Positions 21,301-28,494 of a stretch of 44,104 nucleotides of DNA are shown here, one piece after another. Origin of the DNA: Bacteroidales bacterium (lineage in GTDB: Bacteria > Bacteroidota > Bacteroidia > Bacteroidales > P3); contig JAFXAD010000026.1 in assembly GCA_017522065.1 (NCBI GenBank), positions 1 through 44,104 on the forward strand. Direction: 5' to 3'. How positions within the stretch are numbered: position 1 is the first letter of the stretch; each line of letters opens with the position of its first letter. Below the pieces are notes generated by a model that saw only the letters and a program-made list of their open reading frames with translations, had not been told where the DNA came from and ran no database searches. Both the position numbers and the translations under genes were made by a program.

Positions 21301-22779
21301 GTGAAAATAAAAGATATACTATATAATATAGAATACACTGCTTTCGCCGAAGGCAAGGAATGCTGCGTCGACGACCGCAACATCAAAAGCATCGTCTTCG
21401 ACTCGCGCAAGGCTTGCGAAGGCTCCATTTTCGTCGCTCAAAAGGGTGTTCATGTCGACGGACACAACTACATCTCCACCGCCATCGAGAACGGTTGCAA
21501 TACCGTCATCTGCCAAGACTTGCCCGCCAACCAGCCCAAAGGGGTTTGCTTTGTCAAAGTGGCCAATTCCGACATCGCTCTTGGAAAGGCGGCATCCAAC
21601 TTCTATGGCAACCCCTCGGAAAAACTCAAACTGATAGGCATTACCGGCACCAACGGCAAGACCACCACGGTGACTCTGCTGCACCACATGATGCGCAAAC
21701 TCGGCGTCCACGCTGGTCTGCTCTCCACAATAGTCAACATGGTTGACGACGAGGAATTCCCTGCCACTCATACAACCCCCGATGCCGTTGAGCTCAACTC
21801 GCTTCTGGCCCGGATGGTGGAAATGGGTTGCGAATACTGCTTCATGGAGGTCAGCTCACACGCCCTGGTGCAGAACCGCGTTGCTGGCATCAGCTTCGCC
21901 GGTGCCATTTTCAGCAACATCACTCACGACCACCTCGACTACCACAAGACGATGGCCAATTATATTGCAGCCAAAAAACTGCTCTTCGACAACCTGCCGG
22001 AGTCGGCCTTCGCTCTCACCAACATCGACGACAAGAACGGACTCGTCATGGTGCAGAACTGCCGCGCCAAAGTCAAAACTTACAGCCTCCAGACTGTCGC
22101 CGATTTCCGTTGCAAGATAATTGAAAGCAGCATCCACGGACAGCAACTCCAACTTAGCGTCTACGCCGGCAAACCTCTCGAATTCTGGACCTCGCTCGTC
22201 GGACGGTTCAATGCTTACAACATCACCGCCATCGTCGCCACCGCCATCCTTTGCGGATTCGACTACGAGGAGACGCTGCGCGTGGCCAGCTCGCTGCACG
22301 CTGCTCCAGGACGCTTCCAATACCTGCACGGCAAAGGCATTACCGCCATCGTCGACTATGCTCACACTCCCGACGCACTGCAAAACGTAATCGACACCAT
22401 CAACGACGTGCGCTCAAAACAGCAGAACCTGATTGTCGTCGTCGGATGCGGTGGCGACCGCGACCCGCTCAAGAGACCCATAATGGCTCGCATTGCCGCC
22501 AGCGGCTCTGACCATCTGGTGCTCACCTCTGACAACCCTCGCACCGAAGACCCCGAGGCTATTCTCAACAGCATGGAAGAGGGCCTCTCCGACGAGCAGC
22601 GCGCAAAAACCGTTCGTATAACCGACCGCCGACAGGCCATAAAGACCGCCACCATGATGGCTCACGAAGGCGACATCATCCTTATCGCCGGCAAAGGCCA
22701 CGAGACCTATCAGGAAATCAACAACGTGCGCCATCATTTCGACGACTCGGAAGAAGTACGCAAACTATTGAATGATTGA
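21301..22779 (+). CDS. murE: UDP-MurNAc-L-Ala-D-Glu:meso-diaminopimelate ligase
   Basis: The 492-residue cytoplasmic ligase adds the third residue of the peptidoglycan stem peptide using ATP. The start is GTG (21301). The ATP-binding loop GITGTNGKTTT is at about residues 112-122. The specificity motif DNPRTEDP begins at residue 411; DNPR is the mark of meso-diaminopimelate ligases as opposed to lysine ligases, so the wall is A1-gamma. The C-terminal Mur-ligase domain is complete (IVDYAHTPDALQNV, GCGGDRDPLKRPIM), which makes a contrast with the murD remnant further on. Confidence 0.97.
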   Translation: MKIKDILYNIEYTAFAEGKECCVDDRNIKSIVFDSRKACEGSIFVAQKGVHVDGHNYISTAIENGCNTVICQDLPANQPKGVCFVKVANSDIALGKAASNFYGNPSEKLKLIGITGTNGKTTTVTLLHHMMRKLGVHAGLLSTIVNMVDDEEFPATHTTPDAVELNSLLARMVEMGCEYCFMEVSSHALVQNRVAGISFAGAIFSNITHDHLDYHKTMANYIAAKKLLFDNLPESAFALTNIDDKNGLVMVQNCRAKVKTYSLQTVADFRCKIIESSIHGQQLQLSVYAGKPLEFWTSLVGRFNAYNITAIVATAILCGFDYEETLRVASSLHAAPGRFQYLHGKGITAIVDYAHTPDALQNVIDTINDVRSKQQNLIVVVGCGGDRDPLKRPIMARIAASGSDHLVLTSDNPRTEDPEAILNSMEEGLSDEQRAKTVRITDRRQAIKTATMMAHEGDIILIAGKGHETYQEINNVRHHFDDSEEVRKLLND

Positions 22780-22831: not shown

Positions 22832-24109
22832 ATGTTATATTATCTCTTCAACTGGTTAGACAAAGCCTTCGACTTCCCCGGTGCAGGTGTGTTTCAATAC
22901 ATCTCTTTCCGAGCAGCCATGTCGGTAATAACATCTCTGATTATCATGCTGATTCTCGGAAAACCGTTCATCAAATGGCTCAAAAAGAAACAAATCGGCG
23001 AAACCGTCCGCAACCTTGGTCTCGAAGGACAGAAGGAGAAAGAAGGCACCCCAACTATGGGTGGACTGCTTATTCTTGCCGCTATCATTATACCGACTCT
23101 GCTCTTCGCCAAACTTGACAACATCTACGTGCTCATAATGCTCGGCACCACCGTCTGGCTTGGCTTGATAGGTTTTCTTGACGACTACATTAAAGTGTTC
23201 AAAAAGCACAAGGAAGGTCTGCGTGGAAAATACAAAGTCATCGGACAGGTCGTGCTGGGACTTGTTGTCGGACTGCTTATTATGTACCATCCCGACATAA
23301 CAATCAAAGAGTCCTCCTCTGTAGAAAGCTATGTCGCCTCGCACAACATCAACATCGAAGACAACTTCGAACGTGCCAAAAACGAGATGAGCCAAGACCC
23401 TGTCAAATCAACCAAAACGACTATTCCTTTCGTCAAAAACCACGAACTCGACTACGCAAAAATCATTACTTGGATGGGCGATTGGGCAAACAACTGGGTT
23501 TGGCTTGTATATGTGCTGATTGTCATCCTTGTGGTCACTGCAACGTCGAACGGGGCCAACCTCACCGACGGTATTGACGGTCTGGCGACAGGCACTTCGG
23601 CCATTGTGGGCTCCACTTTCGCCATCCTCGCTTGGGTATCGGGCAACATAATCTTCGCCAACTATCTGAACATCATGTTCCTCCCGAACATTGGAGAATT
23701 GGCTATCTTCATTACCGCCTTTGTCGGTGCCACCCTGGGATTCCTCTGGTACAACACCCACCCTGCCGAAATATTCATGGGCGACACCGGTTCGCTGACC
23801 ATCGGAGGCATCATCGCCGTTTTCGCCCTGCTGATTCGCAAGGAACTTCTGATTCCTATCGTATGCGGAATATTCCTGATTGAAAGCCTGTCTGTCATCA
23901 TACAGACCTCCGGATGCAAGATTTACCGTCGCCGCCACAAGCTGCCCGCAAGCGTCGCCGTGCCGGTCGAAAAGAGACCCTTCCTCATGACTCCTCTGCA
24001 TCACCACTATCAGAAAAAAGGCATCCCCGAAGAGAAAATCGTCACGCGCTTCTACCTTGTCGGCATCATTCTCGCCATCATCAGCATTGTAACTTTCAAA
24101 CTCCGATAA
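22832..24109 (+). CDS. mraY: Phospho-MurNAc-pentapeptide transferase
   Basis: The 425-residue integral membrane enzyme attaches the MurNAc-pentapeptide to undecaprenyl phosphate, making lipid I. About ten membrane helices are evident. Catalytic loops are intact: the DD pair in IGFLDDYIKV, ANLTDGIDGLA (about residues 242-252) and FMGDTGSLTIGG, and the His-rich MTPLHHHYQKKG near the C terminus. A polar insertion of roughly 60 residues (SSSVESYVASHN to KNHELDYAKI), typical of Bacteroidota MraY, lies in a periplasmic loop. The murD remnant starts 47 bases downstream. Confidence 0.97.
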   Translation: MLYYLFNWLDKAFDFPGAGVFQYISFRAAMSVITSLIIMLILGKPFIKWLKKKQIGETVRNLGLEGQKEKEGTPTMGGLLILAAIIIPTLLFAKLDNIYVLIMLGTTVWLGLIGFLDDYIKVFKKHKEGLRGKYKVIGQVVLGLVVGLLIMYHPDITIKESSSVESYVASHNINIEDNFERAKNEMSQDPVKSTKTTIPFVKNHELDYAKIITWMGDWANNWVWLVYVLIVILVVTATSNGANLTDGIDGLATGTSAIVGSTFAILAWVSGNIIFANYLNIMFLPNIGELAIFITAFVGATLGFLWYNTHPAEIFMGDTGSLTIGGIIAVFALLIRKELLIPIVCGIFLIESLSVIIQTSGCKIYRRRHKLPASVAVPVEKRPFLMTPLHHHYQKKGIPEEKIVTRFYLVGIILAIISIVTFKLR

Positions 24110-24156
24110 TATCCAAACCATAAAATTTTAACCTTCATATAATCATCTTTGAAATC

Positions 24157-24702
24157 ATGTACGAAGCATTAGCAACACAAGGAAAATCATCTGTCCATTC
24201 CGGATTGGCCGGCATTGACAGCGCCAAACTCAAAAAACTACGTAGCAGCCACTTGAAAGAGTGCTTCAACCTCATCGACGAGATGCGCCACAAACTCGAA
24301 TTTGTGGCCCGCATCAAAGGCGTATCTTTCATCGACGATGCTGCATCGCGCAACGTCATGTCCACATGGTATGCGCTCGAGACCATCGAGGGCAAAGCCA
24401 TCTGGATAGCAAACGGCGCCGCACCGTCAGCCAACAACGTCTCCCAGCTGAAACGCCTCCACAGCCTGGCCGCACAGAAAGTACAGGCCATCATCACTTT
24501 AGGCAACAGCTCGGTGTACGAACTCGTATTTGGCGACGCCAACATCAAGGTCTGCTCGGTCGAAACCATAGGCGAGGCTGTATCGAAAGCTTTCTACAGC
24601 TGCTCCGAAAACATGAAAGTGCTTTTCTCGCCAGCAGTCGAGAACGGAATCTCGTACGAGACTCAGGGCGACTCATTCAAACACGAAGTCAACGAATTAT
24701 AA
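24157..24702 (+). CDS. MurD remnant: C-terminal domain only, substrate residues lost
   Basis: This 181-residue frame occupies the murD position, between mraY and ftsW. It aligns with the end of MurD only: SSVHSGLAG (11-19) with the helix closing the central domain, and HKLEFVARIKGVSFIDD (45-61) with the start of the C-terminal domain. The N-terminal UDP-binding domain and the ATP-binding domain with GKTT are absent; only 47 bases separate it from mraY. Residues that hold substrate in true MurD are changed: IxDSKATNV reads IDDAASRNV (59-67), so the Lys and Thr are Ala and Arg; GGxDKGxD reads NGAAPSANN (86-94); and SPACASFDxF reads SPAVENGISY (158-167). It cannot be a ligase. Still, the frame is open, codon use is like its neighbours, and its TAA abuts the ftsW ATG, so it is probably translated. 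A structural or regulatory role is possible but unproved. Confidence 0.88.
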   Translation: MYEALATQGKSSVHSGLAGIDSAKLKKLRSSHLKECFNLIDEMRHKLEFVARIKGVSFIDDAASRNVMSTWYALETIEGKAIWIANGAAPSANNVSQLKRLHSLAAQKVQAIITLGNSSVYELVFGDANIKVCSVETIGEAVSKAFYSCSENMKVLFSPAVENGISYETQGDSFKHEVNEL

Positions 24703-25923
24703 ATGGCCACAGAGAAGAAAGACATATCACGCAAACTCCTCAACCCCTTCAAGGGCGACAGGGCCATCTGGTTCATCTTCCTGGTGCTGGCCATCATTTC
24801 GCTCGTGTCGGTCTATAGCTCGGTAGGCTACACGGCCGTCATATCCGACACCACACCTCTGAAGGCCCTTATGAGACACATGCTTTTTGTCGGTGCCTCC
24901 TTCATCCTTGTCATCCTTATGTCTAATTTCGACTACCGCAAGTTCTCCGGCTTGTCGTGGTTTGGCTTCCTTATCTCTGTAACGCTCCTCGTCATCGTTC
25001 TTGTAATCGGACACAAGGACAATGCCGCCGGCTCGGGCATGAGCCGCTGGATATACATACCGCTCATCGGACGCTTCCAGCCGTCCGAATTTGCCAAAGT
25101 CATCATCATCATCTATCTGGCACGACTGTTGGCGCAGGAGAAGGCCACTCTGCACGAGTGGACCACTCTTAGGAAAATTCTTATCCCAGTATTCGCAATC
25201 ATCGGACTCATCATCTTCGACAACCTGTCTACAGCCTTCATCATCTTCTGTGTATGCTATGCTATGCTTCGACTTACAACAGTAAGCAAAAAACAACTAT
25301 GGCTGACAATATTAGTATTGGTCACTACAGGTCTTCTCGCCATTCTCATAACCGACAAGCTCGACCTTAAATTCATGGAACGAGCCAACACTTGGACAAG
25401 CCGTATCGACAAATGGCTCAACTTCGACGAGGAGCAGCTCTCGCAAGAGTCCATGGCGCGAATGGCCGTCGCCTCCGGACGCTTCGTCGGTGTAGGTGTC
25501 GGGTCGACCATACAGGCTCGTCTGATGACTCAAGCCAACAACGACATGATTTACGCAATCATCGTCGAAGAGACTGGAATGCTCGGCGGCGCACTGGTAT
25601 TCCTGCTCTACCTCTTCCTCTACATCCGCTGCATTCGCATCGCCTGGCGATGCAAAGGCGACTTCGGCCGAATGACGGTGGTGGGCTTAGGCACGCTCAT
25701 TTTCATTCAGGCTTCCATCCACATGTGCGTCTCTGTGGGCGCTCTGCCCGTAACAGGACAAACGCTCCCCTTCATCAGTTCGGGCGGATCGGCTTACCTC
25801 TGCATGGGCCTTGCCCTTGGCGTAATCCAATCCGTTGCCTACGACGTGAACAAGAGCGAATCCAAAAACACCATTCCCGAAACAAACGGCAACAAAGCAA
25901 CAAGCGACGAAAAAACAATATAA
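24703..25923 (+). CDS. ftsW: Septal peptidoglycan glycosyltransferase
   Basis: The 406-residue SEDS protein has ten predicted membrane helices and polymerises lipid II at the septum with FtsI. Family features: an early VYSSVGYTA, the catalytic-region PLIGRFQPSEFAK after helix 4, a long periplasmic loop with RMAVASGRFVGVG and NDMIYAIIVEETGMLG, and TLPFISSGGSAYLCMG near the C terminus. The ATG follows the murD remnant stop with no gap, suggesting coupled translation. The tail (about 20 polar residues) is cytoplasmic. Confidence 0.96.
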   Translation: MATEKKDISRKLLNPFKGDRAIWFIFLVLAIISLVSVYSSVGYTAVISDTTPLKALMRHMLFVGASFILVILMSNFDYRKFSGLSWFGFLISVTLLVIVLVIGHKDNAAGSGMSRWIYIPLIGRFQPSEFAKVIIIIYLARLLAQEKATLHEWTTLRKILIPVFAIIGLIIFDNLSTAFIIFCVCYAMLRLTTVSKKQLWLTILVLVTTGLLAILITDKLDLKFMERANTWTSRIDKWLNFDEEQLSQESMARMAVASGRFVGVGVGSTIQARLMTQANNDMIYAIIVEETGMLGGALVFLLYLFLYIRCIRIAWRCKGDFGRMTVVGLGTLIFIQASIHMCVSVGALPVTGQTLPFISSGGSAYLCMGLALGVIQSVAYDVNKSESKNTIPETNGNKATSDEKTI

Positions 25924-25954: not shown

Positions 25955-27076
25955 ATGAAAGCTATAATCAGTGGAGGTGGTACAGGCGGACATATTTTCC
26001 CCGCCATCGCGATAGCCAATGCTATCAAGGCTCGCCATAGCGATGCCAGCATTCTTTTCGTAGGAGCCGAGGGCCGAATGGAAATGGAGAAGGTGCCGGC
26101 TGCCGGCTACGATATCAAAGGCCTCCCGATAGCAGGTCTGCAACGCAAACTGACAGTCAGCAACATCATCAAGAACTTGCAGCTGCCTTTCAAGATGATG
26201 CGAAGCCGCAACATGGTCAAGAAGATTCTTCGTGACTTCAATCCCGACATCGTCGTAGGGGTCGGTGGCTTTGCAAGCGAACCCACACTCAAAGCTGCCG
26301 CCTCGATGGGCTACCCGACTCTGATTCAGGAACAGAACTCCTACGCCGGCCTGACGAACAAGATGCTCGCAAAGGACGCAAGGACCATCTGCGTCGCCTA
26401 CGAAGGCATGGAACGGTTCTTCCCCGCCGAAAAAATAGTCTTCACAGGCAACCCCATACGCGCCGACATCGAAAAAATGACCGCAACAAAAGAGGAAGGA
26501 CGCGCCCACTTCGAACTCGCAGACGACAGCAAAGTCCTCCTCATAATCGGCGGAAGCCTTGGCGCTCGCAGCATCAACCAGATGATGCTTTCCAACCTCG
26601 AACTCGTCAAAAAAATCGGACAAGAACAGAATCTGCAGGTAATCTGGCAAACGGGACAATGGATGAACGACGAAGCCGTCGCTGCCGTAAAACAGGCCGG
26701 AGCCGACGGCACCATAAAGGTGCACCGCTTCATCTCGCGCATGGACCTCGCCTATGCCGCCGCCGATGTCATCATTTCAAGGGCTGGCGCCATAGCCATC
26801 AGCGAGCTGTGCATCGTCGGCAAACCCCTCATCCTGATACCCTCTCCCAACGTCGCCGAAGACCACCAGACTAAGAACGCTCTTGCCCTATCCAACAAAA
26901 ATGCCGCAATCCTGGTCCGCGACAGCGAATGCGCAACGAAAGGCATTCCGACCGTGGTAGAGCTCCTGGCCGACGACGAACGCCGCAACGAAATGTGCCG
27001 CAACATCCTCGCTCTCGCAAAACGCAATGCAGCAGAACTCATCGTCGACGAAATCGACAAAATAGTCACAAAATAA
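25955..27076 (+). CDS. murG: UDP-GlcNAc:lipid I N-acetylglucosaminyltransferase
   Basis: The 373-residue peripheral membrane enzyme adds GlcNAc to lipid I, forming lipid II. The Gly-rich GGGTGGHIFPAIAIA (residues 7-21) is the lipid-diphosphate-binding loop; PTLIQEQNSYAGLTNK, GGSLGARSINQ and the UDP-GlcNAc site SRAGAIAISELCIVGKPLIL with EDHQTKNA are all present. Length and domain order are normal for GT28. It lies 31 bases after ftsW and 20 bases before murC. Confidence 0.97.
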   Translation: MKAIISGGGTGGHIFPAIAIANAIKARHSDASILFVGAEGRMEMEKVPAAGYDIKGLPIAGLQRKLTVSNIIKNLQLPFKMMRSRNMVKKILRDFNPDIVVGVGGFASEPTLKAAASMGYPTLIQEQNSYAGLTNKMLAKDARTICVAYEGMERFFPAEKIVFTGNPIRADIEKMTATKEEGRAHFELADDSKVLLIIGGSLGARSINQMMLSNLELVKKIGQEQNLQVIWQTGQWMNDEAVAAVKQAGADGTIKVHRFISRMDLAYAAADVIISRAGAIAISELCIVGKPLILIPSPNVAEDHQTKNALALSNKNAAILVRDSECATKGIPTVVELLADDERRNEMCRNILALAKRNAAELIVDEIDKIVTK

Positions 27077-27096
27077 CTAAACACAAAGACAGCAAT

Positions 27097-28494
27097 ATGA
27101 CATACTACTTTTTAGGCATAGGTGGAATAGGCATGAGTGCTTTGGCTCGCTTCTTCAAGCAGAGCGGACACAACGTGTCCGGCTACGACCGTACCGAAAG
27201 CCCTCTGACGCGTCAGCTCGTGAGCGAAGGAATACCTGTGCACTACTGCGACGACCCCTCCCTCATTCCCGACAACATCGACCTCGTCGTCTACACCCCC
27301 GCCGTCCCGCAAGACACCAAGGAATTTGAATATCTGCGCGACAAAGGACTGCCTATCAAAAAACGCTCGCAAGTGCTCGGCGAACTGACCCGCGGCAAAA
27401 AATGCATTGCTGTGGCAGGCTCGCACGGCAAAACGACAACAAGCGCAATGATAGCCTTCCTGCTAAGCAAGACCGACATCGGATGCTCGGCATTTCTTGG
27501 TGGCATCTCCAAGAATTTCGGCAGCAACCTCCTGGTCAATACCAAAAGCGAATACGTGGTCGTCGAAGCCGATGAATACGACCGCTCTTTCCTGCAGCTC
27601 CACCCCTTCTATTCCGTAATCACCGCAACCGACCCCGACCATCTGGACATCTACGGCACTCACGAAAAGCTCATCGAAGCCTTCGAACAATTCGCCAACC
27701 AGACGTCGCCCGACGGTGCCATCTTCCTGAAGGAAGGTCTTGCAGGCCACCATCACGACCACGACGAGGAGCATGACGAGGAGCACGAGACCAAACACCT
27801 CCACATCGGCGAGGAAATCAAACAGTACTCCTACTCTGCACGCTCCATCGAGCCCGACTATTACGCCATCAACGTGCGCAACTACAACGGCAACATCTTC
27901 TTCGACCTCCGCACTCCTGAACGTGTACTCTACGACCTCGAACTGCAGAACTCCTGTCTCTACAATGTCGAGAACGCAGTGGCAGCAGCAGCCGTGGCCC
28001 TGAACTGCGGCATCAACGAATACCAGCTGCGCAACGGACTGAAGTCGTTCGACGGCATCCAACGGCGTTTCGATGTCCGCGTCAAAAACAACGACATTAT
28101 CTATATCGACGACTACGCCCATCACCCCAAGGAAATCTCGGCAACCATCGAATCCGTCAAATACCTCTACCCCGGCAAGCGCGTCGTCGGCATATTCCAG
28201 CCGCACCTCTATTCGCGCACTCGCGACCTCGCCGACCAATTCGCCGAAGCCCTCAAACCACTCGACGAAATCATTCTGCTGCCCATCTATCCGGCACGCG
28301 AAAAACCCATCCCCGGAGTCTCCTCAGGCATGATCCTGCGAAAACTCGACACTATGAACAAATACCTCTGCACCCGCGAACAAATCCCCGACATGGTCGA
28401 CGCCCTCTACCCCGACATTCTTCTTACCATGGGCGCAGGCGACATCGACCGGCTCGTACCCGTACTCGAAAAGAAACTGAAAGAAGATTTGTAA
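27097..28494 (+). CDS. murC: UDP-MurNAc:L-alanine ligase with His-rich insert
   Basis: Started at MTYYFLGIGGIGMSALA (465 residues), MurC adds L-Ala to UDP-MurNAc. An in-frame start upstream at 26929 would overlap murG and is rejected. The GIGGIGM nucleotide loop (about residues 7-13), the ATP loop GSHGKTTTSAM (about 108-118), and the DDYAHHPKEI and FQPHLYSRT motifs are intact. Residues 218-236 form a stretch of His, Asp and Glu built from DEEH repeats (HHHDHDEEHDEEH). I do not know this insert in standard MurC; it lies in the central ATPase domain, far from the catalytic motifs, probably on a surface loop, and could bind metal ions. Confidence 0.95.
   Translation: MTYYFLGIGGIGMSALARFFKQSGHNVSGYDRTESPLTRQLVSEGIPVHYCDDPSLIPDNIDLVVYTPAVPQDTKEFEYLRDKGLPIKKRSQVLGELTRGKKCIAVAGSHGKTTTSAMIAFLLSKTDIGCSAFLGGISKNFGSNLLVNTKSEYVVVEADEYDRSFLQLHPFYSVITATDPDHLDIYGTHEKLIEAFEQFANQTSPDGAIFLKEGLAGHHHDHDEEHDEEHETKHLHIGEEIKQYSYSARSIEPDYYAINVRNYNGNIFFDLRTPERVLYDLELQNSCLYNVENAVAAAAVALNCGINEYQLRNGLKSFDGIQRRFDVRVKNNDIIYIDDYAHHPKEISATIESVKYLYPGKRVVGIFQPHLYSRTRDLADQFAEALKPLDEIILLPIYPAREKPIPGVSSGMILRKLDTMNKYLCTREQIPDMVDALYPDILLTMGAGDIDRLVPVLEKKLKEDL

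Follow-up and report, generated by a model that had tools for sequence, protein, structure and literature searches.

The 44,104-nucleotide stretch examined here (the window; positions 1 to 44,104 of contig JAFXAD010000026.1, GenBank assembly GCA_017522065.1) comes from a Bacteroidales bacterium of the family P3 and carries, in its division and cell wall (dcw) cluster, an unusually short gene of 181 codons (24157..24702, + strand) at the place where murD is expected. An earlier note on this DNA had claimed that the murD slot between mraY and ftsW contains only a C-terminal domain with altered motifs, and both parts of that claim hold. The predicted product comprises the MurD C-domain plus about 45 preceding MurD residues, covers only positions 283-439 of the 441 in the MurD profile, and reads DDAASRN and NGAAPSA where residues for D-Glu and ATP (K319, K348 and others) have been lost. 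Its start codon (24157..24159) lies at or adjoining the position of an internal Met that opens MTLEELALQGKHN in full-length Bacteroidales MurD. Upstream is mraY (22832..24109; PF00953 and MraY_sig1), separated by a gap of 47 nt (24110..24156), so the missing N-terminal and middle domains cannot fit there. Downstream, the ATG of ftsW (24703..25923; PF01098) abuts the stop codon of the short gene. Matches to murE (21301..22779) and murG (25955..27076) flank this group on the same strand, followed by murC (27097..28494), whose start was picked by eye inside an open reading frame (ORF) spanning 26929-28494.

Canonical MurD (1UAG, 7U35) and the window protein are homologous over the profile positions given above, and they share the C-domain fold and the mraY-ftsW slot. 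Unlike the canonical enzyme, the window protein has neither the UDP-binding domain nor the P-loop domain that binds ATP, and its C-domain has lost ligand-binding residues, so that alone it cannot be a ligase. Its score against the Pfam family Mur_ligase_C (PF02875), 15.4 bits, falls below the curated cut-off of 28.4. The MurT subunit of MurT-GatD (6GS2, 7Q8E) retains the middle domain, the C-domain and ATP binding, whereas the window protein has neither a middle domain nor the ATP residues.

Stand-alone C-domains of this kind are widespread in the family. Among 149 family genomes (completeness at least 80%, 11 genera), a profile search recovered the frame in 137, and seven more, all of genus g4, carry a more diverged C-domain (39-55 bits) in the same slot, which brings the count to 144. 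The other five assemblies (80-88% complete) yielded no mraY above the cut-off, and thus the locus is probably absent from them. The orthologues that the earlier note proposed to look for between mraY and ftsW were found there at 143 of the 144 loci; at some of these the stop-to-stop frame overlaps the end of mraY, while the matched part does not. In the remaining case (genome G086, L135:1604-2143) the gene has moved within the dcw cluster to a position after a mraW-like gene and a small ftsL-like ORF and before a penicillin-binding protein (PBP) gene, these neighbors having been identified by eye; neither mraY nor ftsW has a match within about 1.6 kb of it. Because 18 sampled families of the order carry the stand-alone C-domain as well, a deletion in one strain or an assembly error is ruled out. 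Fifteen named relatives are Bacteroidales or Bacteroidetes bacteria, some of them from rumen samples.

The frame is also maintained by selection. Across the window and 15 near relatives, all proteins have a length of 180-181 amino acids, with a median identity of 71% and a ratio of nonsynonymous to synonymous differences (pN/pS) of 0.27. The same comparison gives 70% and 0.28 for MurG, 65% and 0.30 for FtsW, and 87% and 0.12 for MraY. For the ten closest pairs the C-domain substitution-rate ratio (dN/dS) is about 0.18; synonymous sites are near saturation in this comparison. These values speak against the neutral evolution that the earlier note had named as a way to be proved wrong. Counted from the Met nearest the expected start, all 144 family copies fall between 161 and 186 amino acids. 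We compared residue retention in 58 full-length MurD proteins, 26 stand-alone proteins from the order and 144 from the family (counts in that sequence below), using residue numbers that, other than 182, 319 and 348, we take to be those of E. coli MurD. Core positions persist, including the Trp of VWI (55/58, 25/26, 142/144) and the Val of KVK (56/58, 26/26, 132/144). All 58 full-length proteins have the His of GKHN (then 1/26, 0/144), Lys348 (7/26, 16/144), Lys319 (16/26, 20/144), Thr321 (15/26, 10/144) and Phe422 (16/26, 17/144). This pattern indicates that the fold has been kept and most ligand sites have not, with Asp317 as an exception (58/58, 26/26, 137/144).

What else the genome encodes explains how the D-Glu ligase could be lost. 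The earlier note had assumed a full-length MurD elsewhere, and a genome-wide search does find one above the family cut-off, on contig C52, but it is not a spare canonical copy, a candidate that we therefore reject. It is instead a MurD2-type ligase fused in one protein to an N-terminal MurL-like epimerase (L004:964-3489, - strand). The MurD half has an intact ATP site (GTKGKSTT), Glu at the place of Asp182 (EEHLDHY) and Arg at the place of Lys348 (GGFSRG), which are the two substitutions reported to set the L-Glu specificity of Xanthomonas oryzae MurD2 (PMC8788868). The MurL-like part matches NF041275, a model named for Xanthomonadales, with an E-value of 4.8e-68 and 229.7 bits; as the cut-off is 700, we take the protein for a relative of MurL rather than for that equivalog. 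No match to the glutamate racemase MurI was found in this genome. Most likely, judging from these sequences, D-Glu is made here from L-Glu on the nucleotide precursor, which would render a canonical D-Glu ligase dispensable. The set resembles the X. oryzae pathway (XOO_1320/XOO_1319; PMC8788868) in its MurD with both MurD2 marks, its MurL-like epimerase and its lack of a MurI match; it differs in that MurD2 and MurL are fused and a third gene, separate from them, encodes the stand-alone C-domain. The list of MurL-carrier genera in the portion of PMC8788868 available to us names Gammaproteobacteria, Alphaproteobacteria and actinobacteria, and not Bacteroidetes. A further Mur-related frame in the genome, of 842 amino acids with a Mur ligase middle domain (L003, C30:29026-29610), is perhaps a MurF-alanine racemase fusion; a separate MurF-like frame of 468 amino acids lies on contig C48.

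The rest of the family conforms to this picture. None of the 149 genomes has a MurI match, and 143 have MurL at E <= 0.001, a few as short pieces and none reaching the NF041275 cut-off. MurL and MurD2 reside on separate contigs in some genomes, are adjacent in others, and form one frame in others. All family full-length MurDs read (loci L004 and L015-L044) have Arg at the Lys348 place, and those aligned at the Asp182 place (about half of the rows are unaligned there) have Glu, except for one MurD2-type protein with Asp (L016, G017:C39).

A sample of 198 genomes from the order (completeness at least 90%) extends the association. MurI above its cut-off occurs in 122 and MurL (E <= 0.001, with no match reaching the NF041275 cut-off in any of the 198) in 68; none has both, and eight have neither, so that MurL and above-cut-off MurI are mutually exclusive across the sample. 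Weak matches to TIGR00067 below the cut-off (E 1e-5 to 5e-19) occur in 15 further genomes, 13 of them with MurL, and since genomes that have a true MurI also show weak matches of this kind in second place, we take them for paralogues. Stand-alone C-domains were found in 29 genomes from 18 families, of which 28 have MurL, none has MurI and one has neither. Full-length dcw-type murD was assigned to 162 genomes by exclusion (58 were read in detail): 35 with MurL, 120 with MurI and seven with neither. Seven genomes were left unclassed, two at contig edges (G244, G286), one without a match (G265) and four with a MurD2-type match only (G164, G194, G218, G264). Among the 191 classed genomes the stand-alone state goes together with MurL (Fisher p 4.8e-15, kinship ignored). 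The notion that the full-length MurD of MurL genomes is already catalytically dead is unsupported, in that all 35 keep the P-loop, Asp182, Lys198, Lys319 and Lys348 motifs; the ratio of conservation in the C-domain to that in the N-terminal and middle domains is 1.12 in these proteins, similar to the 1.09 of 11 others. At one locus (L265, G338) about 420 nt separate the C-domain stop from the start of the ftsW match, a gap larger than at most loci.

The neighboring genes point to a truncation that likely occurred many times. When the stand-alone state is mapped onto a MraY+FtsW tree (109 rows), 17 changes are required, and at least nine of these fall on branches with Shimodaira-Hasegawa-like approximate likelihood ratio test (SH-aLRT) support of at least 95; with 105 rows a single stand-alone clade is rejected (p 2.8e-61). 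Stand-alone and full-length sisters pair up in families f45 and f6 (each within one genus), f23, f31, f67 and f85. A single truncation event is thus rejected on MraY and FtsW, though not on the C-domain itself, and it is conceivable, though less likely, that the truncation happened a single time and that recombination at mraY-ftsW then carried the allele from family to family. This alternative concerns history and is compatible with the functional reading given below. The C-domain tree (94 rows) needs nine changes, only two of them forced by well supported branches; a tree that unites 14 stand-alone rows in one clade is not rejected (p 0.66, or 0.46 without catalytic columns), 12 of the 26 order rows having been left out of this test as long or diverged, and the tree with those 14 rows held together scores 12.4 log units higher. 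A single origin alone would also account for the start Met that most stand-alone genes share. Apart from the MraY+FtsW result, it is opposed by the finding that each of the 14 tested rows has some full-length MurD nearer to it than any other family's stand-alone row, and that the row from G192 is nearest to the full-length MurD of its own genus; these are weak points, because identity favors short branches.

The shared start deserves separate consideration. Most stand-alone genes begin, as judged by eye, at the Met that opens the conserved segment named above in full-length MurD. Met occupies the exact start column in 20 of the 26 rows from the order and in 121 of the 144 from the family, a Met lies within 12 residues of the expected start in 144/144 family rows, and the internal Met is present in 52 of the 58 full-length proteins. 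At the aligned place E. coli MurD has no Met and Streptococcus agalactiae MurD has one. Full-length murD may make a C-domain piece from an internal start, which would explain the common start Met, and comparison of each gene's actual codons with synonymously shuffled versions of it provides evidence for this, short of proof. At first inspection, 33 MurL genes gave a signal and 19 other genes did not. In a scan along the genes, restricted to columns occupied in at least 70% of the rows, the strongest place in genomes without MurL was the true 5' start, and in MurL genomes it was columns 344-370, around the internal Met; two 5' columns of MurL genes outside the listed set reach comparable values. 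For MurL genomes (26 families), a 57-nt test segment with families as units gives z 1.70 (p 1.6e-6) for an excess of A and z 0.83 (p 2.7e-5) for weak folding, compared with z 0.81 (p 0.017) and z 0.23 (p 0.2) in the other genomes (22 families); the two groups differ at p 0.028 for A excess and p 0.0089 for folding. Six control columns reach no A excess of such size (largest 0.36), and some depart in the opposite direction. Codon use at a domain border could have been the source, but the homologous places in MurD2 (33/33 loci scanned), MurE (23/25) and MurC (12/25), controls drawn almost wholly from one family, exhibit neither A excess nor weak folding, the MurC place even having an A deficit (p 0.0034).

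Taken together, these observations lead us to favor, with some confidence, the view that of the dcw murD only the C-domain remains, which persists as a separate protein without catalytic activity, most likely a docking or scaffold surface. The earlier note had raised the possibility that the remnant gained a role, and a new or second role is indeed the best-supported reading. Glutamate ligation would be performed by the MurD2-MurL route. The C-domain would already have had a second, catalysis-independent role in full-length MurD as a surface on which the membrane-bound precursor machinery (MurG, MraY, other Mur ligases, FtsW) could dock, and this role alone would now be under selection. Fold, length and selection have been kept despite loss of the catalytic partner domains and most ligand sites, and thus binding would be the simplest way for the protein to act. 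Associations of Mur ligases with MurG, MraY and MreB have been reported, as has binding of MurD by MurG in Thermotoga maritima (PMC6420597); the dcw position of the gene fits a partner from that set. The proposed role resembles that in the MurG-scaffolded complexes of Bordetella pertussis and T. maritima in placing part of a Mur ligase at membrane-side machinery, but the partners described there are full-length enzymes or a MurE-MurF fusion (PMC6420597), whereas here the putative partner is a C-domain alone. More tentatively, the Bacteroidales dcw murD might be a two-product gene, with translation from the conserved internal Met producing a C-domain polypeptide that has a separate, non-catalytic role in the wall machinery; where MurL-MurD2 replaces the ligase, the long product could be lost and the short one would survive as a gene, such that the window would hold the freed short product.

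Several observations weigh against this interpretation. First, 35 of the 68 MurL genomes (e.g. L273, L277, L272) retain a full-length murD with intact D-Glu-type motifs and have no MurI above the cut-off, and the four with a MurD2-type protein only (mraY-ftsW junction unseen) possibly lost the C-domain completely. Second, G160 (L270, G160:C4; 98% complete) has a stand-alone C-domain with neither a MurL nor a MurI match; its dcw cluster also has no murC match between murG and ftsQ. Third, weak TIGR00067 matches, far under the cut-off, exist in three of the 29 stand-alone genomes (G260, G273, G291). Fourth, neither FtsW nor MraY shows a consistent acceleration in stand-alone lineages, FtsW being lower by more than 0.04 in two of six pairs with data and MraY in one of seven, and a mirror-tree comparison (143 of 144 loci) gives r 0.47 for the C-domain with MraY and 0.13 with FtsW, where MraY with FtsW itself reaches only 0.08, values that single out no partner. 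Fifth, the internal-start signal comes from statistics of synonymous codons in related sequences, with test segments that were set following a first look, and it does not peak at the exact Met column, which ranks 27 of 432 by combined score. Finally, all functional steps, docking included, are inferred.

Other functions appear less probable. The C-domain could be a partner or regulator of MurL-MurD2, tuning it or holding its product and kept only while that system is present, and the MurL matches in 28 of the 29 stand-alone genomes of the order and in 143 of the 149 family genomes would fit. We nonetheless consider this improbable, since the same co-occurrence would also arise if MurL did no more than relieve MurD of catalysis, MurD2 carries its own C-domain with conserved motifs, 35 MurL genomes have a full-length MurD instead, and G160 holds the C-domain without a MurL match. 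Less plausible still is that the frame serves as a translational leader for coupling ftsW to mraY, with its protein doing little. Control of ftsW translation had been suggested in the earlier note, and the stop codon abutting the ftsW ATG and the position directly before ftsW at 143 of 144 family loci agree with it, but the conserved amino-acid sequence along the protein, with its low dN/dS, and the G086 gene, which precedes a PBP gene away from any ftsW match, disfavor it as the main role. A decaying, functionless pseudogene, for which one could cite the lost ligand motifs, a C-domain farther from outgroups than in its full-length sister in six of seven pairs and an internal stop in one of 137 profile-matched family copies (G136), is rejected by purifying selection, near-constant length and presence in every family genome where the locus was seen.

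Searches of PMC papers (a scope outside which subscription papers and preprints lie) gave, by title and abstract, none that treats a MurD C-domain as a free-standing protein or reports MurL from Bacteroidales; PMC2650404 contains the words MurL and Bacteroidetes. That Mur ligases serve as structural parts of a precursor-making complex has already been proposed (PMC6420597). Such a role is hard to separate from essential catalysis, and evolution seems to have separated them here, by moving catalysis to another protein while one MurD domain stays under selection. The MurL route, described for Xanthomonas and some others, looks common in Bacteroidales (68 of 198 genomes), where it excludes MurI. 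Some uncultured relatives of gut Bacteroides thus seem to have switched their glutamate route and lost most of MurD while keeping its tail as a separate, selected dcw protein, which suggests that this tail domain has a second job.
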